Assembly (NCBI GenBank): GCA_947177795.1
Contig: CAMWVR010000017.1
Span: 1 to 32,983 of the forward strand
Source of the DNA: an uncultured Clostridia bacterium
Lineage (GTDB): Bacteria; Bacillota; Clostridia; Christensenellales; UBA3700
Direction: 5' to 3'
DNA: 32,983 nucleotides
Both the position numbers and the translations under genes were made by a program. Below the pieces are notes generated by a model. It did no database searches. It was given only the letters and a program-made list of their open reading frames with translations, and was not told the DNA's origin. Positions 1,637 through 28,036 of the stretch are shown one piece after another. The stretch's first letter is position 1, and every line of letters begins with the position of its first letter.

Positions 1637-1653
1637 GTATACCTCTTTATGTT

Positions 1654-2370
1654 TTACTCTTTTGAAATCTCAAGGGCTTGCTTTAAGTCTATAGCGCCTG
1701 TATATATACTTCTGCCAAGTATTGCTCCGTAGATACCTCTTTCATTTACGGCTTTGACGTCGTCAAGCGTAGCCATACCGCCGCTTGCGATTATATTCAA
1801 ACCGCTCTGCTCGGACAGCTTTGCAGTAGCGTCTACGTTGACTCCGCAAAGCGCTCCGTCTCTGTTGATATCCGTATAAATGACTGTGTCTGCGCCTCTG
1901 CTCTTCATATCCAAAGCCACTTCAAGAGGCGTGAGATTGCTTTTCTCCACCCAACCTTTGATAGCCACAAGTCCGTCTTTTGCGTCGATACCGCAAGCTA
2001 TCTTGTTGCCGTATTTTGCGCAAGCCTCGTCCATCAAGTCGGGATCCGTCACGCAAGCCGTGCCTACTATAACTCTGCTAGCGCCCACTTCTTCAAGATA
2101 AAACTTGATCTTGTCAAATGTCTTTATTCCTCCGCCTATCTGCACGGGAACCGACACCTTTTTGATAAGCTCAATAAGAGTGCTTTTGTTGACGAGCGAG
2201 TCGTCGAAAGCGCCGTTGAGGTCGACGATATGAAGATACTCCGCTCCCATATCCTGCCACTTCAATGCCATTTCTACAGGCGCGCCGTAGACAGTCACGT
2301 CTTCTCTCTTGCCGTATAATAATCTCACGGCCTTATTGTCCAATACGTCAACCGCAGGAAAAAGTATCAT
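1654..2370 (-). CDS. hisA: ProFAR isomerase (phosphoribosylformimino-AICAR-P isomerase)
   Basis: Isomerises ProFAR to PRFAR in histidine synthesis. The protein is a TIM barrel homologous to HisF: it starts [17 protein letters not shown], with the catalytic Asp8. The second acid is in YTDINRDG, and glycine loops are present (QIGGGI, ASGGM). The frame stays open seven codons further upstream. The ATG at 2368-2370 is chosen because AGGAG sits 5-6 nt before it and the conserved N-terminus begins there, giving 238 residues, the usual length. A 122-nt gap with an R1 repeat separates it from hisH. Confidence 0.95.
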
Positions 2371-2433
2371 AGTTGCTCCTATTGTCCGCAATGCGGAAAG
2401 TTGTATTGCTTGCGTTGCAAGCAGTCAATGTTG

Positions 2434-2491
2434 AGATTTCTCGACTTCGCTCGAAATGACAACAGCGTTACTCGAAATGACAACAACGTTA
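2434..2491. repeat. R1 palindrome with a 21-bp tandem duplication
   Basis: A short-form R1 copy (2434-2461, AGATTTCTCGAC...CTCGAAATGACA) runs into a tandem repeat of 21 bp: CTCGAAATGACAACAGCGTTA (2450-2470) and CTCGAAATGACAACAACGTTA (2471-2491), 20 of 21 identical. The second unit ends one base before the hisH stop codon. Confidence 0.8.
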
Positions 2492-2492
2492 A

Positions 2493-3092
2493 CTAATTTA
2501 TCTTTGAAAAATTAGATAAGAGTCTTAGTCCCGTATCTCCGCTCTTTTCGGGGTGGAACTGCGCTCCCCACACGTTGTCTTTGTTGACGGAAGACACGAA
2601 TTCATAGTCGTATATGCAAGTCGTCTCCACGTCGCTTGGGTCGCAACAACTTGCGTGATAACTGTGTACGAAATAAAAATTCATATCGTCCACTCCGTCA
2701 AAAAGTCTCGTACGCTTTTGAAGGCGCAATTCATTCCAACCTATATGCGGAACTTTGAGTTTTGTGTCAAACCTGACGACTTCGCCCTTGATAAGTCCAA
2801 GACCTTGATATTCGCCGTCTTCATAACTCTTGTCAAAGAGCATCTGCATCCCGAGGCATATCCCCAAGAAAGGTTTGCCCTTTGCAATCTCCTTTTTGAG
2901 CGTGTCGACAAGTCCGCTTTGAGTGAGAGCCGTCATTGCGTCTTTGAATGCGCCTACCCCCGGCAAAACGATATGACTTGCATTTGCAAGATCGACCGCC
3001 TTATCCGTAATCTTCGCGTCCTGTCCCACGTACTCAAAAGCCTTTTGCACGCTACGCAGATTGCCCATACCGTAATCGATTATCGCAATCAT
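2493..3092 (-). CDS. hisH: Imidazole glycerol phosphate synthase, glutaminase subunit
   Basis: Class I glutamine amidotransferase that supplies ammonia to HisF. The 199 residues show [14 protein letters not shown] at the N-terminus, the oxyanion segment PGVGAF, the nucleophile Cys79 in GICLGMQ, and the His-x-Glu pair in QFHPEKSG. The ATG overlaps the hisB stop codon (ATGA, 3089-3092), so the two genes are probably translationally coupled. Confidence 0.96.
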
Positions 3093-3670
3093 TCTAGCAT
3101 ACCTTTTGAAGAGGGAATTTTGTCACTGACAATTGTAGTTGCTTCCTTAAGCGCTCTTGCAAAAGCCTTGAATATTGCCTCAATCTTGTGGTGTCCGTTG
3201 CTGCCGTAATGCAAATTGATATGCAACGTCAAGCCTGCGCAATTTGCCACAGCGCGGAAAAACTCCTCAACTAATTCGATATCAAAGTCTCCTACTTTGC
3301 CCGTCATACCCTCGGCGTTGAATACCAAAAACTGCCGTCCGCTGATATCCACTGTGACGGTCGCCAAACTCTCGTCCATGGGTATCGTCACGCTTGCGTA
3401 TCTCTTGATACCCACCTTATCGCCAAGAGCCTGCGCTATGGCTTTGCCAAGCACTATGCCTATATCCTCGACCGAGTGGTGTCCGTCGACTCGCACGTCG
3501 CCGTTGCATTTCACACTCAAATCAAATCCCGAATGGCAGGCAAACAGCGTTATCATGTGATCAAAAAAGCCAATGCCTGTGTCAACGGCGTATTTGCCGT
3601 CTCCGTCAAGGTTGAGCGAAAGAGCGATTTGCGTCTCTTTGGTGTTTCTCTCTATTTGCGATTTTCTCAT
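3089..3670 (-). CDS. hisB: Imidazoleglycerol-phosphate dehydratase
   Basis: Dehydrates IGP to imidazole acetol phosphate, step 6 of histidine synthesis. The 193 residues are the monofunctional form; there is no N-terminal histidinol-phosphatase domain as in enteric HisB. Metal ligand motifs are clear: the [10 protein letters not shown] segment, DGHHSVED, and [11 protein letters not shown] near the C-terminus, the classic duplicated His pattern. It overlaps hisH by 4 nt and follows hisD after 43 nt. A separate histidinol phosphatase must exist elsewhere in the genome. Confidence 0.96.
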
Positions 3671-3713
3671 CTATCCCTCCAAGCTGTCGGTGTATTGCCG
3701 ACGCCGAATATTC

Positions 3714-4994
3714 TTATTTCTTTCTCAACTTAATAGTGTTTGCGTGAGCCGTAAAGCCCTCCGATTGGGCAAGTCTGATCACGTCGTCGCCTATGCTCAT
3801 AAGATCGTCTTTATCGTATTCGATATAACTTATCTTCTTCATAAAGGTATCTACGGACAGCACCGAAGAGTATCTTGCGCTTCCGCTCGTCGGCAACACG
3901 TGCGACGGCCCTGCAAAATAATCTCCCAGAGGCTCTGGCGAATAGTTGCCGACAAATATCGCGCCCGCGTTGGACAACTTCAAGGCTATCTTGTCTGCGT
4001 CCTTTGCGCACACTTCTAAGTGCTCGGGAGCAACTCTGTCCGCAATGGCAATCGCCTCGTCCATATCCTTTGCGATGATTATAGCGCCGTTGTTGGTCAA
4101 AGAATTCTCTATTATCTCTTTGCGAGACAAAAGCGCCGTCTGACGGGCAAGTTCTCTATCCACTTCTTGCGCAATTTTCTCGCTAGTCGTGACGAGTATG
4201 CTTGCGGCAAGCTCGTCGTGCTCAGCTTGAGAAAGCAAATCGCCTGCGAGCAAGACGGGATCTGCGCTGTCGTCTGCAATGACGAGTATTTCGCTGGGTC
4301 CTGCGATCATGTCTATCGCAACGTGTCCGAATACTTGCTTTTTGGCAAGCGTGACGAATACGTTGCCCGGACCTGCAATGAGGTCTACTCTAGGCACTGA
4401 CTGCGTGCCGTATGCCATAGCGGCAATTGCCTGCGCTCCGCCGACCTTGTATATCTTGTCGATACCGCACTCCTTGCACGCAACGAGTATTGCGGGATTG
4501 TTGATATTGGGCGTAGCCACGATTATTTCGCCCACTCCCGCCGCCTTTGCCGGCAAAGCCGTCATAAGCACCGTCGACGGATAGCTCGCCTTACCGCCCG
4601 GCACGTACAGTCCCACTCTCGAAAGAGGTCTGTATATCCAGCCGAGTTTGCTCTTTCCGCCATTCCCTACGGAGAAAAACTCGTTGACGAATTTATCTCT
4701 TTGGCGAGAATGATAATCAAGAATACTTGCCTTTGCCTTGCGTATGCTCTCAATCAAATCTTTATCGACCGACTTATAAGCCTCGTCTATCTCTTTTTGA
4801 CTGACGAGAATGCTGTCGCCGTCAATGACCTGTCTGTCAAACTTGTGCGCATACTCGAAGAGCGCTTTATCTCCTCTTGCTCTCACGTCGGCAATGATAG
4901 CGTCGACAGCCGAGATATACTCGCTGTTGTCAAGTTGAGTTCTTGCAAAAACTCTGCTCATATCGTCTGCGCCGTATTTCAGTATGGGTACCAT
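3714..4994 (-). CDS. hisD: Histidinol dehydrogenase
   Basis: Oxidises L-histidinol to L-histidine with two NAD+ (last two steps). The 426 residues match the family. The signature region GPGNVFV..AK..V.G.VAIDMIAGPSEILV is intact, followed by DLLSQAEHDELA (zinc/substrate ligands) and the APEHLE segment. SGSARYSS lies in the C-terminal half. It starts at 4994, 4 nt after the hisG stop, and is co-transcribed. Confidence 0.97.
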   Translation of the reverse strand: MVPILKYGADDMSRVFARTQLDNSEYISAVDAIIADVRARGDKALFEYAHKFDRQVIDGDSILVSQKEIDEAYKSVDKDLIESIRKAKASILDYHSRQRDKFVNEFFSVGNGGKSKLGWIYRPLSRVGLYVPGGKASYPSTVLMTALPAKAAGVGEIIVATPNINNPAILVACKECGIDKIYKVGGAQAIAAMAYGTQSVPRVDLIAGPGNVFVTLAKKQVFGHVAIDMIAGPSEILVIADDSADPVLLAGDLLSQAEHDELAASILVTTSEKIAQEVDRELARQTALLSRKEIIENSLTNNGAIIIAKDMDEAIAIADRVAPEHLEVCAKDADKIALKLSNAGAIFVGNYSPEPLGDYFAGPSHVLPTSGSARYSSVLSVDTFMKKISYIEYDKDDLMSIGDDVIRLAQSEGFTAHANTIKLRKK

Positions 4995-4998
4995 AAAT

Positions 4999-5643
4999 CT
5001 AGTTTTCCTTGTTTTTGATTATTTCGTCGATGCTCTTGACAAGAGGTTTGATCACGTCGGCTTTGGTCTTGAGAGACACTTTGTTGATGATAAGTCTTGC
5101 CGAACAGTTGACAATCTCCTCAAGTACGCAAAGGTCGTTTTCTTGCAATGTCTTGCCGCTCTCGACAATGTCGAGTATGATATCGCTAAGTCCAACTATC
5201 GGTCCGAGTTCTATCGAGCCGTGAAGCGGTATTATCTCCGCATTTTGTCCTTTGCCGTCAAAATAGTCTTTTGCGATACTCACGTACTTGGTGGCAACTT
5301 TGATGATGTTGCGAGGCTTGGACAAATCGAAATCCTTATATCCCGCAAGGCAAAGTCTGCACTTTGCAAATCCCAAATCGATGAGTTCGTAAACGTCCCT
5401 ATCTTCTTCCATGAGCGTATCTTTGCCCACCACGCCCACGTCGGCTACGCCGTGCTCTACGTATATTGGCACGTCGCTTGGCTTGACGAATATAAACTGA
5501 AACTTTCCGCTTACGTCACTCATTACAAGTTTACGCGACGGCTCTAATATGCGACGGCAATCAATACCGCACTGCTCTAGTATGTCTACGCTCTTTTCGG
5601 CAAGTCTGCCCTTTGCCAAAGCAAAAGTAATCACGTCTTGCAT
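4999..5643 (-). CDS. hisG: ATP phosphoribosyltransferase, short catalytic form
   Basis: First committed step: ATP plus PRPP gives PR-ATP. From ATG 5641-5643 the protein is 214 residues, the short form lacking the C-terminal regulatory (ACT-like) domain. It therefore needs HisZ, encoded just upstream. Motifs include the start ITFALAKGRLAEKSV, the DVPIYVEHGVADVGVVGKD segment and the PRPP-binding stretch DIILDIVESGKTL. The frame extends 36 codons upstream inside hisZ, but GAGGAGG lies 7-8 nt before the chosen ATG and the conserved N-terminus starts there. The start lies 1 nt after the hisZ stop. Confidence 0.95.
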   Translation of the reverse strand: MQDVITFALAKGRLAEKSVDILEQCGIDCRRILEPSRKLVMSDVSGKFQFIFVKPSDVPIYVEHGVADVGVVGKDTLMEEDRDVYELIDLGFAKCRLCLAGYKDFDLSKPRNIIKVATKYVSIAKDYFDGKGQNAEIIPLHGSIELGPIVGLSDIILDIVESGKTLQENDLCVLEEIVNCSARLIINKVSLKTKADVIKPLVKSIDEIIKNKEN

Positions 5644-5644
5644 A

Positions 5645-6817
5645 TCACACTTCCTCCTCTTTTGCTCCAAAGAAAATTCCTCTTTGCGCTTTGAGCGTGT
5701 CTTTGACTTTGACGAGGTCTTGCTTGGAAGTGGCAAAAGTACATTTTGCATTTACGCCTTGGATCAAAAGTTGTTGGACTTTTTTCTCTGCAAGGCTCAT
5801 ATTGGCGGGAGTATAACCTACCACGACTTGCACCTTTGGAGACTTGATAAGTTTTTGCTGATTGTCAAGCGCTCTCGTCAAATATCCTATGCCGATAGCA
5901 AAACCCACCGCAGGGATATTTTTGCCGAATGCGTCGCACAACCTGTCGTAACGTCCGCCTGCAAGGATAGCCCTGCCAAGGTTCTTGATTATGCCTCGCA
6001 TAACCATGCCTGAATAATATTTCATCTTACCCACGCTACTCATATCAAAAGTGACGTACTTCTCGTAGCCAAGGCTCTTGATACCTGCGTATACCGCTTT
6101 GAGGTTGTCCACAGCAGAGCGCATTTGCGCATTGAGACACATCGCCTGCGCCTCTTGCAAAATCTCTTCTCCGCCGAAGAGCATTGGCAGTCTTGCCAAC
6201 GTGTCGAGCATATGCTTGTCCATTTCGTCGGATAGCGTAAATAGCTTGATACCGTTCTTGGATTCAATGCAATTGACGAGTACGTCTCTGTCCTCTTCCG
6301 CCACGTCGTAAGCGTCAAGCAAGCCTTTGAAAAAACCCACGTTGCCGAGCTCAATCTGAAAGTCGTCCAAGCCCACCGCAAGCAAACTCTTGATTGCAAG
6401 CATGACGACCTCGACGTCGATATTGTCGCCCTGCTCACCCATTATCTCCACGCCGGCTTGCGTAAACTCTCTCAACTTGCCCTCGTTCTCGATTGCGCTG
6501 AAGGATTTGCCGAGATAGCAAAGTCTTTGGCTGTCTTGCAACTTGGTGCATACGATACGCGATATCGGCATTGTTATGTCGGGACGCAAAATAAGCAAGT
6601 CCCCGTCCACGTCGGTGACCTTGAACAACTTGTTGAGTTCCACTTTGCCTACGCCGCTGTCAAAAAGTTCGTATCTCTCCAATATCGGAGACTCTATCTC
6701 GCTGTAACCGTAGAATTTAAAGCAATCCATGAGCTTGCTTTCCACGACTCTTTTTGAAAAGCAATCGTCTGGCAAATGGTCTTGCGTGCCTTTGGGCAAC
6801 TTGAATTTCTTGATCAT
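5645..6817 (-). CDS. hisZ: ATP phosphoribosyltransferase regulatory subunit
   Basis: HisRS-like paralogue that forms a hetero-oligomer with short HisG and carries histidine feedback inhibition. The 390 residues begin with the HisRS-type LPKGTQDHLPDD, then motif-2-like RPDITMPISRIVC and the GGRYDRLCDAFGKNIPAVGFAIG motif near residues 290-310. The C-terminal anticodon-binding domain is short and its sequence divergent, which argues for HisZ rather than a true HisRS. It is the first gene of the his operon and sits 90 nt downstream of the predicted promoter. Confidence 0.93.
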   Translation of the reverse strand: MIKKFKLPKGTQDHLPDDCFSKRVVESKLMDCFKFYGYSEIESPILERYELFDSGVGKVELNKLFKVTDVDGDLLILRPDITMPISRIVCTKLQDSQRLCYLGKSFSAIENEGKLREFTQAGVEIMGEQGDNIDVEVVMLAIKSLLAVGLDDFQIELGNVGFFKGLLDAYDVAEEDRDVLVNCIESKNGIKLFTLSDEMDKHMLDTLARLPMLFGGEEILQEAQAMCLNAQMRSAVDNLKAVYAGIKSLGYEKYVTFDMSSVGKMKYYSGMVMRGIIKNLGRAILAGGRYDRLCDAFGKNIPAVGFAIGIGYLTRALDNQQKLIKSPKVQVVVGYTPANMSLAEKKVQQLLIQGVNAKCTFATSKQDLVKVKDTLKAQRGIFFGAKEEEV

Positions 6818-16835: not shown

Positions 16836-19800
16836 TTATTTTTTATTGTCAAATCTATTGAAAAACTCTTTGACCTTGTTTTTCTCTTTGTTGATAAATC
16901 CGCCCGTCTCTTTGAAGAGCGCCTTGAACGCTTCTATCTCCACTCGCATAAACGCCATGATCGGAACTATGCAAATTATGATTATGACAAGTTTTATTAT
17001 CATATCGGGATAAAGCGTTACCAACGAGAATTTCTCGCTGAAGAAGGGATTGCTTACTGCGAATATGAACGCCACAAGCAACAGCGCAAGCATGAATATC
17101 TTGTCTTTGGTATACGGCATGCACACTTGCATCAATACTATAAACGATACCGACGCCGTGATAAATACGCTCATCGTGGATATCTGCGGAGATACGTCAA
17201 AACCTATATCGTTGTACATCCAACATACTAGTATTATTGCAAATGCTACCGTAAGACCTGCCGGTAAGGCTCGTTTGAACACCTTGCTCAAGAAGTTGCC
17301 CTTGACTCTTCTATCGTTGGGTTCAAGCGCCAAGATGAAGGACGGTACGCCTACGAACAATGCGTTGATGAGCGTCAGCTGTATCGGCTCGAACGGATAA
17401 GTCGCAAATTGGAATATGATGAGCAACAACGAAAGCACTGCGCTGAACGTCGTCTTGACGAGGAAGAGCGATGAAGCTCTCTCAATGTTGTTGATGACTC
17501 TTCTGCCCTCGCTGACCACGCTCGGCAATGCCGAAAAGTCCGAATCGAGCAGGACTAGCTGCGCTACGTTACGGCTTGCGTCAGATCCGCTCGCCATAGC
17601 AATTGAGCAATCTGCCTCTTTGAGCGCCATAACGTCGTTGACGCCGTCGCCCGTCATGCCGACGGTGTGACCGTGCGCTTTGAGCGCCGCAACGAGTTCT
17701 TTCTTTTGACTCGGCGTAACTCTGCCGAATACCGTATATTTCTCGACGGCTTCGTATATCTTTTCCGTGGTATCCAAATCGACGGACGCGTCGACGTACT
17801 TCTCGGCATTCTTCAATCCCGCTCTTTCGGCTACTTTGGAGACGGTGAGCGGGTTGTCACCCGAAATAACTTTGAGTTCGACGCCCTGCTGCTCGAAATA
17901 ATTAAACGTAGCGGGAGCGGTACTTCTTATCTTATCGCTCAAGACGATGAGCGCAATAAGACTCATCTGATTGGGATCCATCTGCGAATCTTTGAGTTCT
18001 TCGGTGGTATTGACAAGCACCAATACTCTGAATCCTTGCATTGCGTATTCGTTGACGTTGCGCTCAACGGTGTCGTATCTCTCCTTAAGTACGAACTCGG
18101 GCGCGCCGACTATAAACGTACCCACGCCGTCAAAACTTGCTCCGCTCCACTTTCTTGCGGATGAGAACGGCATAAGCTTCGTCACTTTGAAGGTCTCGTT
18201 AGACGAGAAATATTCCGCGCAAGCCTCGAAAGTTGCGTTGTTTGCGCCAAGCGCCTTGACCATGTTAGCCATTATGTCGTCCGCCGATCCGCACATAGAC
18301 GAATATACGTGGACGTTCTCGACCTGCATAGTGCCTTCCGTGATAGTACCCGTCTTGTCAAGACAAAGCACGTCGACTCTCGCAAGCGCCTCTATCGAAT
18401 ACAAATCCTGTACGAGCGTACGCTTTTTTGCAAGTCTTATGATACCAAGAGCAAGAGCTATCGAAGTCAGCATTACCAAGCCTTCGGGAATCATTCCGAT
18501 GACGGACGAAACCGTACTCGTTACCGCGCCCGAAATACTCGGAGAATACTTGCGGTTGGTGAAGAACATCATGATACCCAACGGGAAGATGATGACCGTA
18601 GCTATTCTGATTATCCAATTTATCGAACGCATAAGTTCCGACTTGGACTTTTTGAACTTCTTTGCCTCGCTCATAAGCTTTGACGCATAAGTGTCTTCGC
18701 CTACGGCTATGACCCTTGCTTTGCAAGTGCCCGCTTGAACGAAACTGCCCGACATAAGCTGATCGCCGAGACCTTTATGTATATCGTCCTGTTCGCCTGT
18801 AAGCAACGACTCGTTAGCCTCGCACTCTCCGCCGACGACTATACAGTCGGTGGGTATCTGACTGCCTTGCTTGAGTATGATCACGTCGTCGATGACGATT
18901 TGATCGGTAGAAATACTCACTATTTGTCCATTACGCACAACGTCTATCGACGGCGCAGACACCAACGAAAGTTTGTCAAGAGCGCGCTTGGATCTTATCT
19001 CTTGGAAAATACCTATCACGAGATTGACGAGCGCAATACCCGCAAAAAGCATATTCTTGAGTTGTCCGTTGAAAATGATTATCAGACATACGAGAAAAAT
19101 ATTGACCAAGTTGAATAGGGTAAATATATTTGACGTAAAAATCTTGAGATAAGATTTAGAGATCGAATTGTCTTGATAGTTTGTCAATCCTCTCAACTGT
19201 CTCTCTTCTATCTGTTCGTCGTTGAGTCCTTGTTCTGCGGTCGACTCAAAATGAACGAACTCGACGCTGTTGTATTTCTTGGACTTTTCTTTGAGTTCTT
19301 TTGCCTTACGTTTTTCTTCGGCCTTTTGCGCAGCTTTCGCAGCCTTTTTTTCTGCCTTGAGATCGGCTTTGACGACGTCGTCCTTTTTGTCGGTCTCGTC
19401 GGGCTTTAAGTCGGCTTGGCTCTCTTGCGAGACTGACTCGTCGGCAGAAGTCTCTTGCGGCTTGCTATCCTTATCGTCCAAAGCCTTTTCCGACTTATCC
19501 TCAACGGGTACGCTCTCTATAGTTGCCGTTTGGCTGTCTGCTACCTCTTGAGAGACGATATTCTCGTCCGCCTGCTTTTCTTCGACAGCCTCAGTCTGCT
19601 GTTTTTCCGCAGAAGCCGTCGAAGAAGGCGCGACCTTCTTGACTACGACGACCTTTTTGACCGTCTTTCCCGTTTTGCCTGAGGTATTTGTCTTATCCGT
19701 CGCATTAACTGCGCCTTCCGTAGTGGCATTTGTCTTATCCGTTTCTCCTGTAGCTTTATTTACAGGCACCTTCTTAACAACTTTTTTGACTACAACGGTC

Positions 19801-20018
19801 TTTTTTGCGCCTTGCGCAGCCCCTTGCTGTTGAGTAGCAACATTTGTGTTTATATCTTTTTTTGTGGAATTATTATTCGTAGAAGTAGTAGAATTCCCCT
19901 TCGTCGTTACCTTTTTTACGGTTTTGGTCGAAGAAGACGAGCCTGCGTCGGACGCAGTTTCCTGCTTGTCAAACATAGACATCTGTTCTACATTGTTCTT
20001 TTTGCTTTTCTCCGCCAT
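16836..20018 (-). CDS. P-type cation ATPase (CtpE/CaxP-like, probably Ca2+) with long Lys/Thr-rich N-terminal extension
   Basis: Membrane cation pump of 1060 residues. The core (about 265-1060) has A-domain TGE (407-409), the M4 motif PEGL (511-514), phosphorylated Asp554 in DKTGT, and hinge motif GDGVND (790-795). About ten hydrophobic segments include pairs near 300-340, 466-530, 840-900, 920-970 and 975-1025. IPEGLVMLTS followed by LARVDVLCLDKTGT resembles mycobacterial CtpE and streptococcal CaxP, for which calcium transport is reported; substrate here is inferred. The first 265 residues have no known domain: KKV-rich basic repeats (33-130), an acidic Gln/Glu/Asp/Ser stretch (135-212) and a Lys/Ala/Glu helix (216-250). 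guaA follows in the same operon. Confidence 0.9.
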   Translation of the reverse strand: MAEKSKKNNVEQMSMFDKQETASDAGSSSSTKTVKKVTTKGNSTTSTNNNSTKKDINTNVATQQQGAAQGAKKTVVVKKVVKKVPVNKATGETDKTNATTEGAVNATDKTNTSGKTGKTVKKVVVVKKVAPSSTASAEKQQTEAVEEKQADENIVSQEVADSQTATIESVPVEDKSEKALDDKDSKPQETSADESVSQESQADLKPDETDKKDDVVKADLKAEKKAAKAAQKAEEKRKAKELKEKSKKYNSVEFVHFESTAEQGLNDEQIEERQLRGLTNYQDNSISKSYLKIFTSNIFTLFNLVNIFLVCLIIIFNGQLKNMLFAGIALVNLVIGIFQEIRSKRALDKLSLVSAPSIDVVRNGQIVSISTDQIVIDDVIILKQGSQIPTDCIVVGGECEANESLLTGEQDDIHKGLGDQLMSGSFVQAGTCKARVIAVGEDTYASKLMSEAKKFKKSKSELMRSINWIIRIATVIIFPLGIMMFFTNRKYSPSISGAVTSTVSSVIGMIPEGLVMLTSIALALGIIRLAKKRTLVQDLYSIEALARVDVLCLDKTGTITEGTMQVENVHVYSSMCGSADDIMANMVKALGANNATFEACAEYFSSNETFKVTKLMPFSSARKWSGASFDGVGTFIVGAPEFVLKERYDTVERNVNEYAMQGFRVLVLVNTTEELKDSQMDPNQMSLIALIVLSDKIRSTAPATFNYFEQQGVELKVISGDNPLTVSKVAERAGLKNAEKYVDASVDLDTTEKIYEAVEKYTVFGRVTPSQKKELVAALKAHGHTVGMTGDGVNDVMALKEADCSIAMASGSDASRNVAQLVLLDSDFSALPSVVSEGRRVINNIERASSLFLVKTTFSAVLSLLLIIFQFATYPFEPIQLTLINALFVGVPSFILALEPNDRRVKGNFLSKVFKRALPAGLTVAFAIILVCWMYNDIGFDVSPQISTMSVFITASVSFIVLMQVCMPYTKDKIFMLALLLVAFIFAVSNPFFSEKFSLVTLYPDMIIKLVIIIICIVPIMAFMRVEIEAFKALFKETGGFINKEKNKVKEFFNRFDNKK

Positions 20019-20070
20019 TTATATATCCTTGTTTCGCTTATAATAATACTTAAAAATAAGTAGCAACTAA

Positions 20071-20345: not shown

Positions 20346-20360
20346 TTGAACAATGTTCAA
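20346..20360. promoter_or_regulatory. Palindromic site TTGAACAATGTTCAA, copy 2, overlapping the tyrA stop
   Basis: Fifteen-bp perfect palindrome containing the 13-bp sequence seen at 20185-20197. It overlaps the tyrA stop codon (20357-20359). The rest of the 338-nt gap 20019-20356 holds the ATPase promoter, the other palindrome and the tyrA terminator. No gene is seen in it. Confidence 0.45.
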
Positions 20361-21229
20361 AGATTATTTTTTGTCGTTCTTTTTTTCTCCAAAGCCAATC
20401 GTCTTGCCGATGACTTGACGAATGCCGACTTCAATCTCTCGACGTCATTATCCACAAGAGCCTGCTTAATGCCTGAAAGTTGAGTCTCAAAACGAGTGAT
20501 AGTAGATATAAGATTGTCCTTATTGCCCAAAAAGAGTTCGCTCCACAAATCCTCATTGATATTGGCAATCCTCGTCAAATCTCGATAGCTGTCGCCGATA
20601 TAACTCGCCGTATCGCTATCCTCGTCATCGCTGTTGATGAGCGACACCGCAATGGCGTGCGGGAGTTGAGAAGTATAGGCAATCACTTTATCGTGAGTCT
20701 CAACGTCGGTAATGCGAATTCTTCCAAAGCCTATGTCAGTGACGATCTCGCTCATTCGCTCTATTGCGTCTTGCGTAGTGTCGGGCGTGGATACGATAAG
20801 GAAATTAGCGCCTTGCAACACCTTGTCGTCGGCGTATTTAAATCCCCTTTTTTCTCTGCCTGCCATGGGATGACAAAATAGAAATTCGCAACCGTCGGGC
20901 ACTCGGTCGTTGATTTGATCGACGAAATGGCTTTTGATTCCCGCAACGTCGCTTATCAGACAGCCTTTTTTGATATACTTGCCGTACTGCTCAAGATAAC
21001 TCACTATTTGATTGGGATAAAGCGCAATAATTATAACGTCGCTTTGTTGAAAAAACTTTTCTGGAGTATTGCCGCCATCCTTGATAGCGCCCACTGCAAT
21101 AGCGTCTTCTATGCTTTGAGAAGACCTGTTGACGCCGTATACGGTGTATCCCTTCTTTGAGAGAGCTATTGCATACGATCCGCCGACTACTCCCAAGCCA
21201 ACTATTGTGATTACTTTATCTTGTTTCAT
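20357..21229 (-). CDS. tyrA: Prephenate dehydrogenase
   Basis: NAD(P)-dependent oxidative decarboxylation of prephenate to 4-hydroxyphenylpyruvate for tyrosine. The 290 residues contain an N-terminal Rossmann fold GLGVVGGSYAIALSKKGY, the segment ISDVAGIKSHFVDQI, the catalytic-site region FCHPMAGREKRGFKYAD and the helical SQLPHAIAVSLIN. There is no ACT domain, so tyrosine feedback through this protein is not evident. AGAGG precedes the ATG, and a 6-bp hairpin lies in the leader at 21245-21259. It is last in the aromatic cluster, separated from aroQ by 348 nt of R1 repeats, so it may have its own promoter. Confidence 0.95.
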   Translation of the reverse strand: MKQDKVITIVGLGVVGGSYAIALSKKGYTVYGVNRSSQSIEDAIAVGAIKDGGNTPEKFFQQSDVIIIALYPNQIVSYLEQYGKYIKKGCLISDVAGIKSHFVDQINDRVPDGCEFLFCHPMAGREKRGFKYADDKVLQGANFLIVSTPDTTQDAIERMSEIVTDIGFGRIRITDVETHDKVIAYTSQLPHAIAVSLINSDDEDSDTASYIGDSYRDLTRIANINEDLWSELFLGNKDNLISTITRFETQLSGIKQALVDNDVERLKSAFVKSSARRLALEKKRTTKNNL

Positions 21230-21280
21230 AATGCCTCTTGGATTTCCGACACAGTCGGAGTTTTCCGTTTTTTTATTTTG

Positions 21281-21545
21281 AGATATTTCGACTTCGCTTA
21301 CGCTCCGCTCAATATGACGTTCAAAAGGTTTTTAATTTCTTTCTGTCATTTCGACCAAATCATAGCGCCGTGAAGAGATTGTTATCCGATTATCATACCG
21401 TTGAGGCCTTACGACTTCACTCGTTTCGCTCAAGGTGACATACAAGGTTTTGGATTTCTCCATTACGCTATACTACAGTCGAAATGACACAAACGCGAGC
21501 GTCAATGACATTGCATTTTGTCATTTAGAGCGCAGTCGAGAAATC
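21281..21545. repeat. Dense array of five R1 palindromes between aroQ and tyrA
   Basis: Copies at 21281-21319 (arms ATATT/AATAT), 21344-21379 (degenerate), 21403-21440 (arms GCCTT/AAGGT, the first pair being G-T), 21452-21488 (ATTTC/GAAAT) and 21519-21545 (reverse, ATTTC/GAAAT). Between the last two, 21491-21510 carries only the right end of the long-form block (GCGAGCGTCAATGACA). The array fills nearly all of the 348-nt gap. No gene is seen here. Confidence 0.8.
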
Positions 21546-21577
21546 TAATCCGTTTGACAATCGATATCAAACTATAA

Positions 21578-22009
21578 TTACTCAAGCAGTGACTCAACCG
21601 CCTCAATATATCCATCGTATCCCTTACCGCTTATCTGCGCAATGCATGCAGGCGCCGTGACAGACACTTGTCTGAATGGTTCTCTTGAGTGAATATCGGA
21701 TATATGCACCTCAACTACGGGTATTGGCGCAATCGCCTTGATAGCGTCGTAGATAGCGTAACTGTAGTGAGTATGCGCTCCCGGATTGATAACTACGCCG
21801 TCATAGCCGCCATAATAGCATCCGTGCAGACAATTGACTATTTCTCCCTCGATATTGGATTGGAAAAAGTCAAGTTTAACGTCCAAATCTTTACACTTAT
21901 CGGTTATAAAATCGCATAGTCCTTTATAATCCAAATAGCCGTACACGCCTTTTTCCCTTATACCCAGCATATTGAGATTTACGCCGTTGATAATCATAAT
22001 TTTTTTCAT
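21578..22009 (-). CDS. aroQ: Type II 3-dehydroquinate dehydratase
   Basis: Converts 3-dehydroquinate to 3-dehydroshikimate. The 143 residues match the small dodecameric type II enzyme. Motifs: NGVNLNMLGIREKGVYG with the catalytic Arg/Tyr loop, NPGAHTHYSYAIYDAI, and VEVHISDIHSREPFR with the catalytic His. The usual proline in NGPNLN is replaced by Val here. It begins 34 nt after the aroE/K stop, in the aromatic cluster. Confidence 0.95.
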   Translation of the reverse strand: MKKIMIINGVNLNMLGIREKGVYGYLDYKGLCDFITDKCKDLDVKLDFFQSNIEGEIVNCLHGCYYGGYDGVVINPGAHTHYSYAIYDAIKAIAPIPVVEVHISDIHSREPFRQVSVTAPACIAQISGKGYDGYIEAVESLLE

Positions 22010-22043
22010 TATTCACCCATTTTGTACATATTCTACGTTTAAG

Positions 22044-23336
22044 TTATTTGACTATTTTAACGATATCTTTGACAGTCTTATACATATCGTATTCGTGACT
22101 TTTCACGACGTAATCGCAAGTCGAATAATATCTGTCCTTTCTCTGATCATATATCTGTCTCAACTTTTGCGCTCCGTCCTTGAGTAGCGGTCTGGTATCG
22201 GTACGTACGCCGGCAATAATATCTTCGATTTTTCTCTCTATCAATATTATCACTCCGCTGAGTCGCATTGCGCTGACGTTGACGTCTCTCAAAACCGCTC
22301 CGCCGCCCGTCGCAACGACAAGATTTTTTTTATGCGATAATTCTTCAATTGCCTTGCTCTCCCAATCTCTGAACACGCTTTCGCCCTCGTCGAACAATTG
22401 GTTTATGCTTTTACCGGATATTTGCGTAATATATTCGTCTGCGTCGACGAATTGCCAGCCAAGAGCCTTGGCTACTCGTTTTCCTTTGACAGTCTTTCCG
22501 CATGACATAATGCCCGTGAGATAGATATTACCGCCATTTGCATTGAAATAATCTTTCATCAAAGAGTTGAATATCCTCTTCGTCAAAGTCTCGTCGGTAA
22601 TTGAATTATTCCATATCTCCTGCGACTTCATCGCTTGTGCGACGAGCATATACAATCCGCCCACGGCCTTTTTGCCGAGTCTCACCGCATTTTGCAACAA
22701 TTGCGTATACACGGGATTATACACTATGTCGACGACCGCGTCGAAGTTCTTTATAATCTCGTCGGATACGGGACAGCCGTCAGTATTGGGAAACATACCC
22801 ACGGGAGTGGTGTTGACGATGACGTCGCCTTTAAAACTCTCAAGTTCATCATAAGTAATAAAGTCGTCGACGTCTTTTTTGCTTTGATTGCGAGTCGCAA
22901 TCTTTACGCATTTCGCTCCGCGCTGTTTGAGTATAAAATATACAGACTTACTTGCGCCGCCGCTGCCGAGAATAACGAAAGTCTTGCTTTTTATCTCGAC
23001 GTCGTTGGCTTTGAGCATTCCCTCAAAACCGTAAGGGTCGGTATTATATCCGTACAGCTTGCCGTCGGAATTGACCACGGTATTGACTGCGCCAATCTTC
23101 TTTGCCTCTTGCGACGTTCCGCTAAGATACTTGATTACCTTTTCTTTATAGGGTACGGTCACGTTGAAACCGTCGTATTGCATCAGCGTATCTTTGCAAT
23201 CGTCGAGCATATCTTGCATAGCAATTTGCTCGACGCCGTAAGTAGCGTCCTTTTTGTAATAATCAAAATACGCTTTATGTATTTGAGGCGACATAGTATG
23301 CGTAAGTTTTTCGCCTATTACGCAGTATTTTTTCAT
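22044..23336 (-). CDS. aroE/aroK: Fused shikimate dehydrogenase-shikimate kinase
   Basis: One 430-residue polypeptide combining two successive pathway steps, dehydroshikimate to shikimate to shikimate 3-phosphate. AroE part (about 1-260): substrate motif THTMSPQIH, catalytic Lys in FNVTVPYKEK, catalytic Asp in NTDPYGFEG, NADP-binding GSGGASKS and the ATRNQSKK phosphate-binding segment. AroK part (about 270-430): P-loop GIMSCGKT, DADEYI, the Arg of VFRDWE, and Walker-B-like ATGGGAV followed by lid arginines TDTRPLL. Both sets look intact, so both activities are expected. It starts 4 nt after the pheA stop. Confidence 0.94.
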   Translation of the reverse strand: MKKYCVIGEKLTHTMSPQIHKAYFDYYKKDATYGVEQIAMQDMLDDCKDTLMQYDGFNVTVPYKEKVIKYLSGTSQEAKKIGAVNTVVNSDGKLYGYNTDPYGFEGMLKANDVEIKSKTFVILGSGGASKSVYFILKQRGAKCVKIATRNQSKKDVDDFITYDELESFKGDVIVNTTPVGMFPNTDGCPVSDEIIKNFDAVVDIVYNPVYTQLLQNAVRLGKKAVGGLYMLVAQAMKSQEIWNNSITDETLTKRIFNSLMKDYFNANGGNIYLTGIMSCGKTVKGKRVAKALGWQFVDADEYITQISGKSINQLFDEGESVFRDWESKAIEELSHKKNLVVATGGGAVLRDVNVSAMRLSGVIILIERKIEDIIAGVRTDTRPLLKDGAQKLRQIYDQRKDRYYSTCDYVVKSHEYDMYKTVKDIVKIVK

Positions 23337-23340
23337 GAAT

Positions 23341-24471
23341 TTATACCCTTTGTCCTTTGGCGTATTCGCCTATAATCTCAAAAAACGAAGATACTTCCGC
23401 AACGTACTCCAACGCCTCGTTTAGCTTGGGAGAGTTGCAAGGATGCTCCAAGTCAACGTAAAAATAATATCTCTCGGGAGAGTTCTCTACGGGTCTTGAC
23501 TCTATGTTGAGCAAGTTAATTCCGTTCTTGGCAAAATACTTCAAAGCGTTGAAGAGCGCTCCCGGAGTGGAATTCAACGCAAAGACTATGCTCGTCTTGT
23601 CGCTCTTATCGCTGTCCAACAAATTCTTGCCGATGACTATAAAACGAGTATAGTTGCAAGACTGCGACTGGATATTCTCTGCGACGACTTCGAGTCCGTA
23701 AAGCCGAGCGTTGCGCTTTGACGCTATCGCCGCTTTGCTCTTGTCGTTTTGTTCTGCGACAAGCTTTGCCGACGACGCAGTTGATTTAAATGGAATAATA
23801 TTCCACTTTCCGCCCGATAAATAATTGTCGCATTGCGTAATCGCCTGAGGATGAGAATACACTTCTTTGACGTCTTCCAGCCTCGCGCCTTTGACTCCCA
23901 AAAGACAGTGGTCGATGCCTTGCCACTGCTCGCCTACGACAAAAAATGCGTATTTGCGAAGCAAGTCGTAGACCTCGGTAATTGCGCCTGTCGAAGAGTT
24001 TTCTATGGGCAAAACTCCGTATTGTATCCTGTCTTCTTTCAAAGCAATAAATACGTCTTCAAAGGTAGCAAAGCTATCGCCTTTGTCGTCGCCGAAAAAG
24101 TCCGTCATAGCTTGTTGAGAATTAGATCCCTTGTCGCCGTAATATCCTTTTTTGCCATTTAAATCAAGCGGTTGGCGACAGTATTTGCCAAAAAGATTTG
24201 ACTTAGAAATTTTCTTTCGCTGCAAATCTTTGCTCAGTCCCATAAGTTCGACCATAAGTTGACGGGCAGAGTCGGCGTATTCTTTGTTGACGAGATTGTC
24301 CACCGCTTTTGCAAGCACCTCGTCTTCTCTCGAGCTTTGCAATACGCTCGCATTGCGCGTCTTTTTATACTCGGCAACGCCCAATACCAATCCCATTCTT
24401 TTCTCAAAAAGTGAGATAATCTCCTTGTCGACTAAATCTATCCGTTCTCTCAATCTATCCAATTCGTCCAT
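23341..24471 (-). CDS. pheA: Bifunctional chorismate mutase / prephenate dehydratase (P-protein)
   Basis: Takes chorismate to prephenate and then phenylpyruvate. The 376 residues have an AroQ-type chorismate mutase (about 1-90; LRERIDLVDKEIISLFEKRM), a prephenate dehydratase domain (about 108-285; VLPIENSSTGAITEVYDLL and the catalytic CNYTRFIVIG) and a C-terminal ACT domain (about 295-370; ESRPVENSPERYYFYVD), which normally binds phenylalanine for feedback inhibition. The dehydratase start reads GYYGDKGSNSQQA where most relatives have a GTFS-like turn. It is the only chorismate mutase seen here, so it probably also feeds TyrA. Confidence 0.94.
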   Translation of the reverse strand: MDELDRLRERIDLVDKEIISLFEKRMGLVLGVAEYKKTRNASVLQSSREDEVLAKAVDNLVNKEYADSARQLMVELMGLSKDLQRKKISKSNLFGKYCRQPLDLNGKKGYYGDKGSNSQQAMTDFFGDDKGDSFATFEDVFIALKEDRIQYGVLPIENSSTGAITEVYDLLRKYAFFVVGEQWQGIDHCLLGVKGARLEDVKEVYSHPQAITQCDNYLSGGKWNIIPFKSTASSAKLVAEQNDKSKAAIASKRNARLYGLEVVAENIQSQSCNYTRFIVIGKNLLDSDKSDKTSIVFALNSTPGALFNALKYFAKNGINLLNIESRPVENSPERYYFYVDLEHPCNSPKLNEALEYVAEVSSFFEIIGEYAKGQRV

Positions 24472-24499
24472 ATAATACCGCCCGAATTATTGTCTATAT

Positions 24500-25585
24500 T
24501 TACAGATCTTCTCTGTATCGCAAAAGGTCGTAAATCGCTATGGCTGCGACCGCTTCGATGACAGGCACGGCTCTTACGACTATGCATGAGTCGTGTCTGC
24601 CCGTCAAATTGAGTTTGACGTTCTCGCCCGTGATGACGTTGATGCTGTCTTGCTCTTTAAAAATCGACGCCGTCGGCTTGATTGCCGCATCGAAAATTAT
24701 CGGCATACCCGTGGACAGTCCGCCCAAAATTCCGCCGTTGTTGTTGGTGGCGGTAAACACTCTTCCGCCCAAACATCTGAACGGGTCGTTTGCCTCGCTG
24801 CCTTTCATCTTGGTAAGTTCGTAGCCTTTGCCAAACTCCACTCCTTTGACTGCGGGAACAGAGAAAAGCAAACTTGCAATCTTTGACTCAATGCTCTCAA
24901 AGAAAGGTTCTCCGACGCCTGCGGGAACTCCGACGATTGCGCACTCTATCGTACCGCCTACGCTGTCGCCTCCCGACCTAGCCTCTTTTATCAGATAATC
25001 CATTGCGACGAATTTTGCGTTGTCAATGAGCGGAAATACCTGTCTGGTCAAGTTCTCAAGCATATTGCCTTCGACTCTTGCGTCGAATTTTGTGTCCTTG
25101 ATATTGCCTATCGAAGCGATGTGCGAACCTATAAACACGTCTTTGAGTCTAAGCAACTGTTTGCAAATTGCGCCTGCAAACACCAACGGCGCAGTGAGTC
25201 GTCCCGAAGAATGTCCTCCGCCTCTGTAGTCGTTGTTGCCTCCGCTCTTGTGATAATACCCAAAATCACTGTGTCCAGGTCTGACGACTTCTTTGAGCAA
25301 GTCGTAGTCTCCGGACTTGGTATTGGTGTTGCGGATAATACCGCAAAGCGGCGTACCCGTCGTCTTGTCGTTGAAATATCCGCTGACAATCTTCACCTCG
25401 TCCGCCTCTTGTCTAGGCGTGGAATACTCGCCGCCGTTGGGCGCTCTCCTCGTCATTTCTCGTTGTATCTCCGCCATATCCAAAGGCACGCCTGCCGGCA
25501 AATTGTCTATCACGACGCCAATTGCCGAGCTGTGCGATTCTCCGAATATCGTTATTTTGATATTACTGCCATATACTGCGCTCAT
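24500..25585 (-). CDS. aroC: Chorismate synthase
   Basis: FMN-dependent anti-1,4-elimination of EPSP phosphate to chorismate. The N-terminus MSAVYGSNIKITIFGESHSSAIG, the RRAPNGGEYSTPRQEAD segment, GNNDYRGGGHSSGR and the C-terminal RHDSCIVVRAVPVIEA are all family signatures. The frame continues 24 codons upstream, but GGAGG sits 7 nt before the ATG at 25583-25585 and conservation starts there, giving 361 residues, the usual length. The 155-nt gap to aroA contains a hairpin at 25617-25646. Confidence 0.96.
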   Translation of the reverse strand: MSAVYGSNIKITIFGESHSSAIGVVIDNLPAGVPLDMAEIQREMTRRAPNGGEYSTPRQEADEVKIVSGYFNDKTTGTPLCGIIRNTNTKSGDYDLLKEVVRPGHSDFGYYHKSGGNNDYRGGGHSSGRLTAPLVFAGAICKQLLRLKDVFIGSHIASIGNIKDTKFDARVEGNMLENLTRQVFPLIDNAKFVAMDYLIKEARSGGDSVGGTIECAIVGVPAGVGEPFFESIESKIASLLFSVPAVKGVEFGKGYELTKMKGSEANDPFRCLGGRVFTATNNNGGILGGLSTGMPIIFDAAIKPTASIFKEQDSINVITGENVKLNLTGRHDSCIVVRAVPVIEAVAAIAIYDLLRYREDL

Positions 25586-25616
25586 TTGTTCCTCCGTGTT
25601 TCTTGTAGAGTCTCGA

Positions 25617-25646
25617 CTTGAGTTTACGCATTTGCGCTCACTCAAG
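25617..25646 (-). other. Hairpin in the aroA-aroC spacer
   Basis: Seven-bp perfect stem CTTGAGT/ACTCAAG around a small inner CGC/GCG stem, 32 nt upstream of the aroC start. No T-run follows, so it is not an intrinsic terminator. It could be an mRNA-processing or stability element or may be incidental. Confidence 0.35.
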
Positions 25647-25740
25647 CCTCGCCTCAATTTCTAATCTAAATATTTTAATAATTATCATTTTCCAGTGTTC
25701 AGCATTTCCGACGCGCAACCTTATATTGAAAACATATAAT

Positions 25741-26988
25741 TTAGTTGCGACGAATTACCTTGCCGCCAAGGCTGACAAAGTGGTCAAAGAAGTTGGGATA
25801 CGACTTAGACACGCTTTGCGCTCCCGATATCTCGACTTCGCCGTCGGCTACCGTCGAAGCTATAGCCAGCATCATTGCCATGCGATGATCCCCGTGACTG
25901 TCGACAACTCCGCCTCGCAGTCTGTCCACTCCGTCGATAGACAAATAGTCTTCGCCTTGAGTGATCTTTGCGCCCAATTTACCTAGCTCCTGCGCCGTGG
26001 CGGAAAGCCTGTCGCATTCTTTGATTTTCAATCTCGATATATTGACTATATCCGTATGTCCTCGTCTCAGACAGCACGCCAATGCAAATACGGGAATTAC
26101 GTCGGGACAATTACTGCCGTCAAACGTCAACACTTCGTTCTCGTCCGCCGACTTGAGTCTGCTTACGAAGTCAACGATGACTTTATCTCCCTGCAAGCTA
26201 TCTGCGTTAAGCCCTTGCATAACGACTTCACTGCCGAGATAATTGGCGACTTCATAATACGCTTCTTGCGAATAATCTCCCTCGATGCGGTAATCGCAAG
26301 CCTGATATCGCCGTCCGCCTTTGATATAGAAAACGCTGCCGTCGCAGACTACGTCAATACCGAAATCTTTGAGCGCCGAAAGCGTCAAATGCAAATAACC
26401 CACCGATTGCAACTGCCCCTCGACGATTATCTTGCTGTCTCCGTCAAGCAACGACAACGCAAACAAAAGTCCCGTTATAAATTGCGAACTTACTCCGCCG
26501 TCGACGTGATATTCTCCGCTTTTCAACTCGCCTTTTACGCTCAAATCCAAAAGATGATTTGCATTCAAAAGACTCTTGTCGATATACTCGACGCCTTGCT
26601 CTTTGCAAATATCTCTATAGATCGTCATAGGTCGCTCGCCCAATTTGCCTCTGCCGACAAACGTATTTTTTCCGCTGTTGAGCGCCAACGCTATCGGCAA
26701 AATAAATCTCAACGTAGACCCCGATTCTTTGCAGTCGTAAGTCAAGTCTGCCGACGCCTTCGCCGAATTGCCCTCTATCTCCAATACGCCGTCTTTTACG
26801 ACGATCTTTGCGCCCAGCGAGCGCATACACTCAATCGTCGCGACTATATCGTCGCTCAAAGCCACGTTAGATACCGTACTTTTTCCGCGAGCAAGACATG
26901 CGCAGATTATCGCTCTGTGCGCAAGGCTCTTTGACGGCGGTATCGCCACGGTTCCTTTAAGTTTTGTCGGTGTGATTATAGCGTCCAT
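25741..26988 (-). CDS. aroA: EPSP synthase (3-phosphoshikimate 1-carboxyvinyltransferase)
   Basis: Transfers enolpyruvyl from PEP to shikimate 3-phosphate; this is the glyphosate target. From ATG 26986-26988 it is 415 residues. Signatures: IPPSKSLAHRAII at the N-terminus, the PEP loop ESGSTLRFILP, GERPMTIY, IKECDRLSA and GDHRMAMMLAIAS. The loop differs from the LGNAGTAMRP of class I enzymes such as E. coli and resembles divergent Clostridia forms. Glyphosate sensitivity cannot be read from this. The frame extends 39 codons upstream inside aroB; the chosen ATG lies 1 nt past the aroB stop, and a GAGGAG is 16 nt upstream, so coupling to aroB translation is likely. Confidence 0.95.
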   Translation of the reverse strand: MDAIITPTKLKGTVAIPPSKSLAHRAIICACLARGKSTVSNVALSDDIVATIECMRSLGAKIVVKDGVLEIEGNSAKASADLTYDCKESGSTLRFILPIALALNSGKNTFVGRGKLGERPMTIYRDICKEQGVEYIDKSLLNANHLLDLSVKGELKSGEYHVDGGVSSQFITGLLFALSLLDGDSKIIVEGQLQSVGYLHLTLSALKDFGIDVVCDGSVFYIKGGRRYQACDYRIEGDYSQEAYYEVANYLGSEVVMQGLNADSLQGDKVIVDFVSRLKSADENEVLTFDGSNCPDVIPVFALACCLRRGHTDIVNISRLKIKECDRLSATAQELGKLGAKITQGEDYLSIDGVDRLRGGVVDSHGDHRMAMMLAIASTVADGEVEISGAQSVSKSYPNFFDHFVSLGGKVIRRN

Positions 26989-26989
26989 G

Positions 26990-28036
26990 TTATTTGAGAA
27001 AATACTCCTCGTCGGTTGCAAAGGTATAGCTCTCGCCGATTTCTTTGAGCAAAACCACGTTGAGCTTTTTGCCCAAATTCTTTTTGTCGCTCTTGATTGC
27101 CTCAAGCACGTCTTGCGCCTTTACTGGATCAGACACAGGCAAGCCGTATTGTCTCAATACGTTTTGCAATCTGTTTGCCGTACCCTTTGCCGTCTGCCCA
27201 AGCCTCTCTGAAATTTGCGTAATATACGCCATACCTATTGCCACGGCTTGTCCGTGAGAATAACCTGTGAAGTTATAATACTTTTCTATTGCGTGTCCGT
27301 AAGTGTGTCCGAAATTGAGCAACATTCTCTCGCCGTTGTCTTTTTCGTCGACTTCGACGACACGTCTTTTTATATCGCAGCAAGTATAGACTATGTCTTC
27401 TACTTTGTCCATAAATTCTTCGCGCGATTTTATACTCTCCAAGAGAGCAAAAAGAGCTTTGTCTTTTATGCAACCGTATTTGATAATCTCCGCCATACCG
27501 TCGATATAGAACTTGTCGGAAAGATCGTATAATACGTCGGTGTCGATAAATACCAACTTGGGCTGATAAAAACTGCCGACCAAATTTTTTCCTTCGGGCA
27601 AATCTACCGCAACTTTGCCGCCCACCGAGCTGTCCACTTGCGCAAGCAACGACGTGGGAACTTGAACGAAATCCACTCCTCTCAAATACGTCGACGCAAC
27701 AAAACCGCCTAGGTCGCCTATCACACCGCCGCCAAGAGTGATGACCAAATCACGACGTGTAAGATTAAAGGCAATCATGCTCGAATATATGGGATATATA
27801 GAATTGATATTCTTCGTAGGCTCGCCTGCTTCAAGTACCATAAGTTTGCACTCGTATCCCTTAGCAATAAGACTGTCTATCACAACGTTGGCGAATATCG
27901 GAGCGACGTTGGTGTCGCTGAGAATAAAGACCTTTCCGCCCCTGCTCGTCACGTAATCGCCTATGCTTGACAGGTGGTTTCTGCCTATGATTATGTCATA
28001 ACTGTTTTCGCCGAGATTTACTCTCAATTTCTTCAT
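26990..28036 (-). CDS. aroB: 3-dehydroquinate synthase
   Basis: Converts DAHP to 3-dehydroquinate using NAD+ and a divalent metal. The 348 residues show the Rossmann-like N-terminal half (VFILSDTNVAPIF), the NAD loop LGGGVIGDLGGFVAS, PTSLLAQVDSSVGGKVAVD and the metal-ligand segment NFGHTYGHAIE. GAGGCAG precedes the ATG. It is the first gene of the aromatic cluster. DAHP synthase, which makes its substrate, is not in this window. Confidence 0.96.
   Translation of the reverse strand: MKKLRVNLGENSYDIIIGRNHLSSIGDYVTSRGGKVFILSDTNVAPIFANVVIDSLIAKGYECKLMVLEAGEPTKNINSIYPIYSSMIAFNLTRRDLVITLGGGVIGDLGGFVASTYLRGVDFVQVPTSLLAQVDSSVGGKVAVDLPEGKNLVGSFYQPKLVFIDTDVLYDLSDKFYIDGMAEIIKYGCIKDKALFALLESIKSREEFMDKVEDIVYTCCDIKRRVVEVDEKDNGERMLLNFGHTYGHAIEKYYNFTGYSHGQAVAIGMAYITQISERLGQTAKGTANRLQNVLRQYGLPVSDPVKAQDVLEAIKSDKKNLGKKLNVVLLKEIGESYTFATDEEYFLK

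Follow-up and report, generated by a model that had tools for sequence, protein, structure and literature searches.

A P2-type cation pump with a long, predicted disordered polyampholyte N-terminus in an uncultured Clostridia bacterium: a possible electrostatic tethering arm

The pump gene and its core

The window analysed here, a stretch of 32,983 nucleotides from an uncultured Clostridia bacterium, contains on its minus strand an open reading frame (20018..16836) which starts with ATG, comprises 1060 amino acids and encodes a P2-type, CtpE-like cation ATPase (16836..20018). The start codon is preceded by an AAGGA ribosome-binding site and a 7-base spacer (20019..20030, minus strand; AAGGATATATAA-ATG), and the same or a similar AAGGAT is found in orthologues of the same genus. 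Residue 264 is the first of the conserved core motif GLNDEQIEER, and hydrophobic sequence first appears at about residue 290, which leaves approximately 263 residues ahead of the pump core, in good agreement with the initial annotation, where the segment preceding the first membrane helix had been put at about 265 residues.

The folded core (residues 264-1060; 16839..19229, minus strand) was modelled by AF2, from an alignment of 43 rows, with pLDDT values mostly of 70-90 and above, and its sequence is 95-99% identical among close species. It matches PF00122 (E1-E2_ATPase; E 5.3e-44, 150.3 bits, cut-off 28.1) and PF00702 (HAD; E 1.1e-17, 65.4 bits, cut-off 26.4) and contains the DKTGT phosphorylation motif, which is invariant in the compared sequences; these domains and the motif place the protein in the P-type ATPase superfamily (P2-like), and the AF2 model and Foldseek both indicate a P-type ATPase fold. 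Ten transmembrane (TM) helices in a type II topology fit the model (at approximately residues 290-316, 320-349, 461-491, 495-531, 828-869, 878-897, 909-935, 943-965, 971-996 and 1004-1030) and agree with hydrophobic peaks in the sequence, and TM4 carries an IPEGL motif (GMIPEGLVMLTS, residues 508-519). A VPEGL motif is found in CtpE of Mycobacterium smegmatis, a Ca2+ uptake P-type ATPase of family 23 with 791 amino acids and 10 TMs, and IPEG(A)L in the Ca2+ pumps of family 2 (PMC5615198). The present pump shares with CtpE the type II topology, the ten helices and the (V/I)PEGL motif in TM4; since PEGL-type motifs are common to CtpE and the family 2 pumps, the motif cannot separate the two, and its match to both makes Ca2+ a reasonable candidate substrate. 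CtpE, with 791 amino acids in all, has no room for a tail of the kind described below.

The general P-type model was the only NCBIfam model to which the pump scored above cut-off. It remained far below the cut-offs of the PMR1/SERCA Ca2+ models (TIGR01522, 237.9 versus 798.3; TIGR01116, 174.8 versus 703.4) and of the plasma-membrane H+ model (TIGR01647, 287.3 versus 615.5) and the MgtA/B model (TIGR01524, 199.7 versus 610.75), the latter showing that its core belongs to another subfamily than MgtA; no CtpE equivalog was among the NCBIfam matches. Foldseek matched the model, at sequence identities of about 20%, with Pma1, SPCA1, the Listeria Ca2+-ATPase, SERCA, ACA8 and MgtA; Pma1 ranked first by E-value and ACA8 seventh. 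Both the H+-ATPase Pma1, whose N-terminal extension is ordered, and the autoinhibited Ca2+-ATPase ACA8 have regulatory terminal extensions; both are eukaryotic pumps.

A compact aromatic-acid cluster is located at 20357-28036 of the window (minus strand), whose genes we take, from our own reading of the sequences, to be tyrA, aroQ, a fused aroE-aroK (430 amino acids), pheA, aroC, aroA and aroB. The part from tyrA to aroC adjoins the pump gene in several related genomes.

Architecture and translation of the N-terminal tail

The tail (residues 1-263; 19230..20018, minus strand) is composed chiefly of K, A, T, V, E and S, with 47 lysines among the first 265 residues, and its net charge is nearly zero (+4), which makes it a polyampholyte. 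The basic KKV repeats, the acidic stretch and the Lys/Ala/Glu helix named in the initial annotation could all be located, each on the minus strand. A first, short KKV unit (TVKKVTTKG, residues 33-41; 19896..19922) has homologous counterparts in two genomes, G001 and G008; a second one comprises residues 72-85 (KKTVVVKKVVKKVP; 19764..19805) and a third one residues 117-130 (GKTVKKVVVVKKVA; 19629..19670), with related units in tails of the same genus. The acidic stretch (residues 136-220; 19359..19613) has a net charge of -16, corresponding to a net charge per residue of -0.19 over 85 residues. Directly before the core follows the charged Lys/Ala/Glu helix (residues 218-251; 19266..19367), which is predicted by AF2 as well, with pLDDT values of 71-78. 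Residues 1-217 are without secondary structure in the AF2 model (pLDDT about 30) and all sub-blocks of the tail fall below the Uversky order boundary, so that the disorder proposed earlier is supported by both kinds of prediction. The Pfam search gave no match in the tail region. Segregation of charges, which had also been claimed, holds at a scale of 15 residues, where it exceeds that of shuffled copies (z 2.8; 4 of 300 shuffles as high), and not at a scale of 5 residues (z -0.1), and is thus modest.

Two simple explanations for the KKV units were rejected. The hydrophobic moments of the two long units are no higher than those of shuffled sequences (p about 0.5 for a helix and about 1 for a strand), which speaks against an amphipathic helix or strand. 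Recent slippage of a codon array is not supported either, as Tandem Repeats Finder detected no array at the KKV units and their codons vary.

After the in-frame ATG codons at residues 1, 13 and 15, the next one is found at residue 323. There is no GTG or TTG codon between residues 180 and 275, and the TTG codons nearest to the core, at residues 275 and 278, lie within conserved core sequence, so that no credible start exists near residues 250-260. In each orthologue of the same genus an upstream Met at the beginning of the tail directly follows a ribosome-binding site of the AAGGA/AAGGAT or AAAGGA type, and none of 36 family members starts around residue 260 with a conserved start codon and ribosome-binding site. 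The orthologues of two other genera, g3 and g4 (e.g. L143, L146 and L155), show a TATATTAT/GATATTAT-like box within about 10-15 bases upstream of the ATG and no clear Shine-Dalgarno sequence there, as if the mRNA were leaderless.

Substitution patterns point in the same direction. Tails of close pairs are 50-72% identical where the cores are 95-99% identical; for the genome of the window (G000) and G001, for example, identity amounts to 99.1% in the core and 71.6% in the tail. The dN/dS ratio of the tail is 0.14-0.30 in eight out of nine close pairs and 0.52 in the remaining one, compared with 0.008-0.08 for the core, the ratios being rough for more distant pairs, whose dS is close to saturation. 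With dS well above dN, the tail is read by the ribosome in this frame and its amino acid sequence is under constraint; this shows purifying selection on the tail, far weaker than on the core. A mis-called start, with the real protein beginning around residue 250 and the tail not being made, would fit the many relatives in the order that start 5-40 residues from the core, but given the excess of dS over dN across the tail, the ribosome-binding site and start codon at its beginning in the same-genus orthologues, and the lack of an ATG between residues 15 and 323 and of GTG or TTG between 180 and 275, the chance of this is negligible. The tails of the orthologues equally speak against an assembly artefact, and the uninterrupted frame noted in the initial annotation represents a real protein.

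Distribution and conservation of long tails

Of 46 genomes from the same family, 42 encode an orthologue of the pump (E 1e-160), and in all 36 members with a readable N-terminus (the window included) 157-306 residues precede the core motif. These 36 members span five genera, and their cores differ by up to about 40%. Orthology is supported by shared synteny (aro genes-ATPase-guaA-purA, with the aro cluster on one side of the pump and guaA and/or purA on the other) and by the tree of 58 pump cores, in which the long-tailed family members form one clade (support 100/100). Its sister f7 has tails of 36 residues, and those of f3, f15, f16 and f31 measure 13-32 residues. A separate clade of f28, f14, f18 and f32 (support 88/91) again shows long tails of 108-218 residues, of other sequence and each with basic patches; long tails in two separate clades indicate at least two origins, or one origin followed by losses. 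Several genera of the family also encode a paralogue with a short tail of 33-39 amino acids; the genome of the window has three PF00122 loci, none of which is of this type. The notion that typical pumps of this kind are short-tailed thus holds for these paralogues and for several families with 13-54 residues, but not for the four families of the second clade.

No convincing alignment above shuffled sequences was obtained between the window tail and tails outside the genus (z at most 2.3). What is kept outside the genus is the length class, the composition, the clustering of charges and a basic patch close to the core. Tails of the family consist of 16% K, 14% A and 13% E and contain almost no Cys or Trp. 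In the 36 tails a strongly basic 12-mer is found at a median of about 22 residues ahead of the core motif (median z 2.05 versus shuffles) and charge segregation at the 15-residue scale reaches a median z of 2.6, both tests counting related tails as independent; in several tails, e.g. those of G016, G002, G004, G215 and G224, segregation is not beyond chance.

The KKV units are less widespread than the tail itself. A KKV-type unit (KKVVVKKV or IKKTIVKKVVK) is present in 8 of 13 same-genus tails, and related units such as EDGKVLIKKTIVKKVVK occur in same-genus tails that are otherwise not alignable, while none was found in the same-genus group of G005, G007, G010 and G015 or in G006. Comparison of orthologues thus confirms the persistence of a long charged tail (36 of 36) and not that of the KKV units, which only some members of the genus possess. 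As the tails of other orthologues are long and charged even where KKV is absent, the units are a local elaboration, and a role as the functional core of the tail is not supported. Another motif, EQ[ML][STG][ML] (EQMSMF, EQLTL or EQLGL), is shared at the N-terminus by two subclades of the genus whose tails have diverged in other respects, and Q[LM][ST][LMI] is present in 8 tails compared to 0.16 in shuffles; like the KKV counts, these numbers refer to motifs chosen post hoc, after viewing the sequences, in related rows. The string QMSMF resembles a DNA-clamp-binding motif. We discarded this reading, as the string is limited to few tails and such a function is unlikely on a membrane pump.

Within the organism's proteome such tails are rare. 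In genome stretches of 433 kb with 320 ORFs, 7 of the 320 contain an 80-residue disorder-like window, and only 2 of the 320 contain it before the first membrane segment, namely the pump and, on contig C37, an MFS-like protein deliberately included in the sample. This indicates that N-terminal stretches of this type are no general habit of the proteome but special to few proteins. The MFS-like protein (L133, 12039-13352; PF07690 E 1.4e-5, below cut-off) has a disordered N-tail of about 90 residues, with a Lys-rich cluster at its end ahead of the first membrane segment; its C-terminus is of low complexity. A search of the genome with the pump tail returned only the gene itself and one weak match (E 0.0026), to another membrane protein, whose Lys-rich N-terminus is disordered; on this basis the idea that KKV units form a proteome-wide module was rejected.

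A scan by codon pattern led to an unrelated family of large surface proteins, present in the window's own genome in 32 copies with a common C-terminal domain of 134 residues, for which no significant Pfam match was found. Their layout comprises a signal-peptide-like start, a long extracellular part, one or two TMs and cytosolic EKVVEKE/VEVPVEK repeats (examples: L158, nt 1476-6416; L159, nt 1159-6003), and they are located on contigs C2, C6, C7, C8, C28, C42, C54 and C76-C81. Many copies sit close to the end of a contig, a possible reason for the fragmented assembly. The genomes compared were 15 from the genus, 12 of which contain the family with 8-32 copies, and 10 from other families of the order, none of which contains it. 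The three genomes of the genus (g1) that are without it, G005, G007 and G010, also lack KKV units in the pump tail; since G006 has the surface proteins and no KKV units, this co-absence may reflect only shared ancestry.

Possible roles of the tail

Disordered N-terminal tails are a known, though poorly understood, regulatory element of P-type ATPases and have been studied in short tails of about 30-36 residues, as in the Mg2+ pump MgtA of E. coli. The KEIF segment of MgtA, 33 residues long, is disordered and binds anionic vesicles (PMC7226168), and the dimer of MgtA has its N-terminus placed against TM2/TM4 and in contact with the A and P regions (PMC10925321). Like the tail described here, that of MgtA is cytosolic, disordered, poorly conserved and yet consistently present; it is basic, with proposed contacts to anionic lipid or to acidic surfaces of the pump (PMC7226168, PMC10925321). 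The Na,K- and H,K-ATPases are, like the present pump, P2 pumps with a polybasic, disordered cytosolic N-terminus, and their Lys-rich tails have been proposed to act as electrostatic switches under kinase control, binding anionic lipid and shifting the E1/E2 equilibrium (PMC10771482). Whereas the MgtA tail is cationic and comprises about 33-36 residues, the present one, with approximately 263 residues, is of mixed charge and includes an acidic stretch and a charged helix. It is several times longer than the tails of MgtA or the Na,K-ATPase; the N-tails of Na,K- and H,K-ATPases are much shorter.

With respect to such electrostatic switches, the present pump does have a disordered N-terminus with a polybasic cluster near the membrane domain. 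A Ser/Thr kinase that could phosphorylate the tail was not detected: a search of the organism's own genome (97% complete) with PF00069 for a Hanks-type kinase gave nothing at E 0.001, and ORFs of more than 600 amino acids on the stretch of contig C13 that encodes a PASTA protein contain no kinase HRD/HCD motif. A phosphorylation switch is thus unlikely and we do not propose a kinase-driven mechanism.

Our preferred, tentative reading is that the gene encodes a plasma-membrane, CtpE-like P2-type cation pump whose long, disordered cytosolic polyampholyte acts as an electrostatic tethering or autoregulatory arm, i.e. as a tether or brake at the actuator side; we assign this reading, pump and arm taken together, a probability of about 0.45. 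The charged helix 218-251 would fix the tail to the actuator side, and the basic patches might attach in a reversible manner to the head groups of anionic lipids or to acidic surfaces on the cytosolic domains, with the acidic stretch competing for these patches. Such contacts could bias the movement of the actuator domain and hence the E1/E2 balance, which would render pump activity dependent on lipid charge, ionic strength or divalent cations. In favour of this reading are the predicted disorder of residues 1-217 next to the helix 218-251, the retention of a tail in all 36 readable family members, purifying selection on the tail, the basic patch that stays close to the core, charge segregation above that of shuffles, the rarity of such tails in the proteome sample and the precedents named above. 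Contact of the tail with lipid or pump and its effect on activity are what we infer by analogy with the pumps discussed above. The regulatory or anchoring arm suggested in the initial annotation therefore stands as the best reading of a tail which is a real, predicted disordered protein segment, its function being suggested by this analogy. The near-neutral charge (+4), in contrast to the cationic tail of MgtA, the long KKV units that are no more amphipathic than shuffles, the several tails without charge segregation beyond chance, and an AF2 model that by its nature does not bear on binding all count against tethering, as does the fact that tails outside the genus cannot be aligned with the window tail, since no specific contact is then conserved.

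The main rival, which we regard as somewhat less probable, is a tolerated or purely entropic extension that has no specific partner, either a disordered segment constrained in length and solubility, whose sequence has drifted to low complexity, or a bulky brush on the cytosolic face. The fast drift of the tail (dN/dS of 0.14-0.52 versus 0.008-0.08 for the core), the lack of any tail alignment between genera and the retention of only length class and composition outside the genus are what such a spacer would predict. However, the tail has been lost in none of the 36 family members from five genera despite the divergence of their cores (up to about 40%), its basic patch stays near the core, comparable tails are rare in the proteome sample, and there is no DNA tandem array pointing to recent slippage. 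That no readable orthologue is without the tail speaks against plain junk, yet leaves room for a non-specific role.

Docking of cytosolic partners by short linear motifs such as EQ[ML][STG][ML] or the KKV units is improbable. It would account for the recurrence of EQMSMF/EQLTL/EQLGL in two diverged subclades, for Q[LM][ST][LMI] in 8 tails versus 0.16 expected from shuffles, and for the KKV-type units in 8 of 13 same-genus tails, but several tails within the genus, and almost every tail outside it, lack both motifs, and the counts are post hoc and from related rows. Still more improbable is binding of RNA, DNA or the ribosome, which the initial annotation had also considered: apart from the Lys-rich blocks nothing speaks for it, and the acidic stretch, the near-zero net charge and the absence of a Pfam match in the tail speak against it.

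Returning to the tethering arm, a further and speculative extension, to which we give only a small chance, is that long polyampholyte N-tails arose at least twice in one order of Clostridia on CtpE-like cation pumps, as kinase-free electrostatic regulators whose acidic and basic blocks sense cytosolic divalent cations or membrane charge and which are selected for charge pattern and length, not for sequence. With no Hanks-type kinase detectable in the genome, sensing of lipids or ions would be separable from control by phosphorylation. The family further provides a natural series, consisting of one lineage whose tails measure 157-306 residues, its sister with 36 residues and a second long-tailed clade of other sequence, by which the roles of tail length, charge pattern and sequence become testable.
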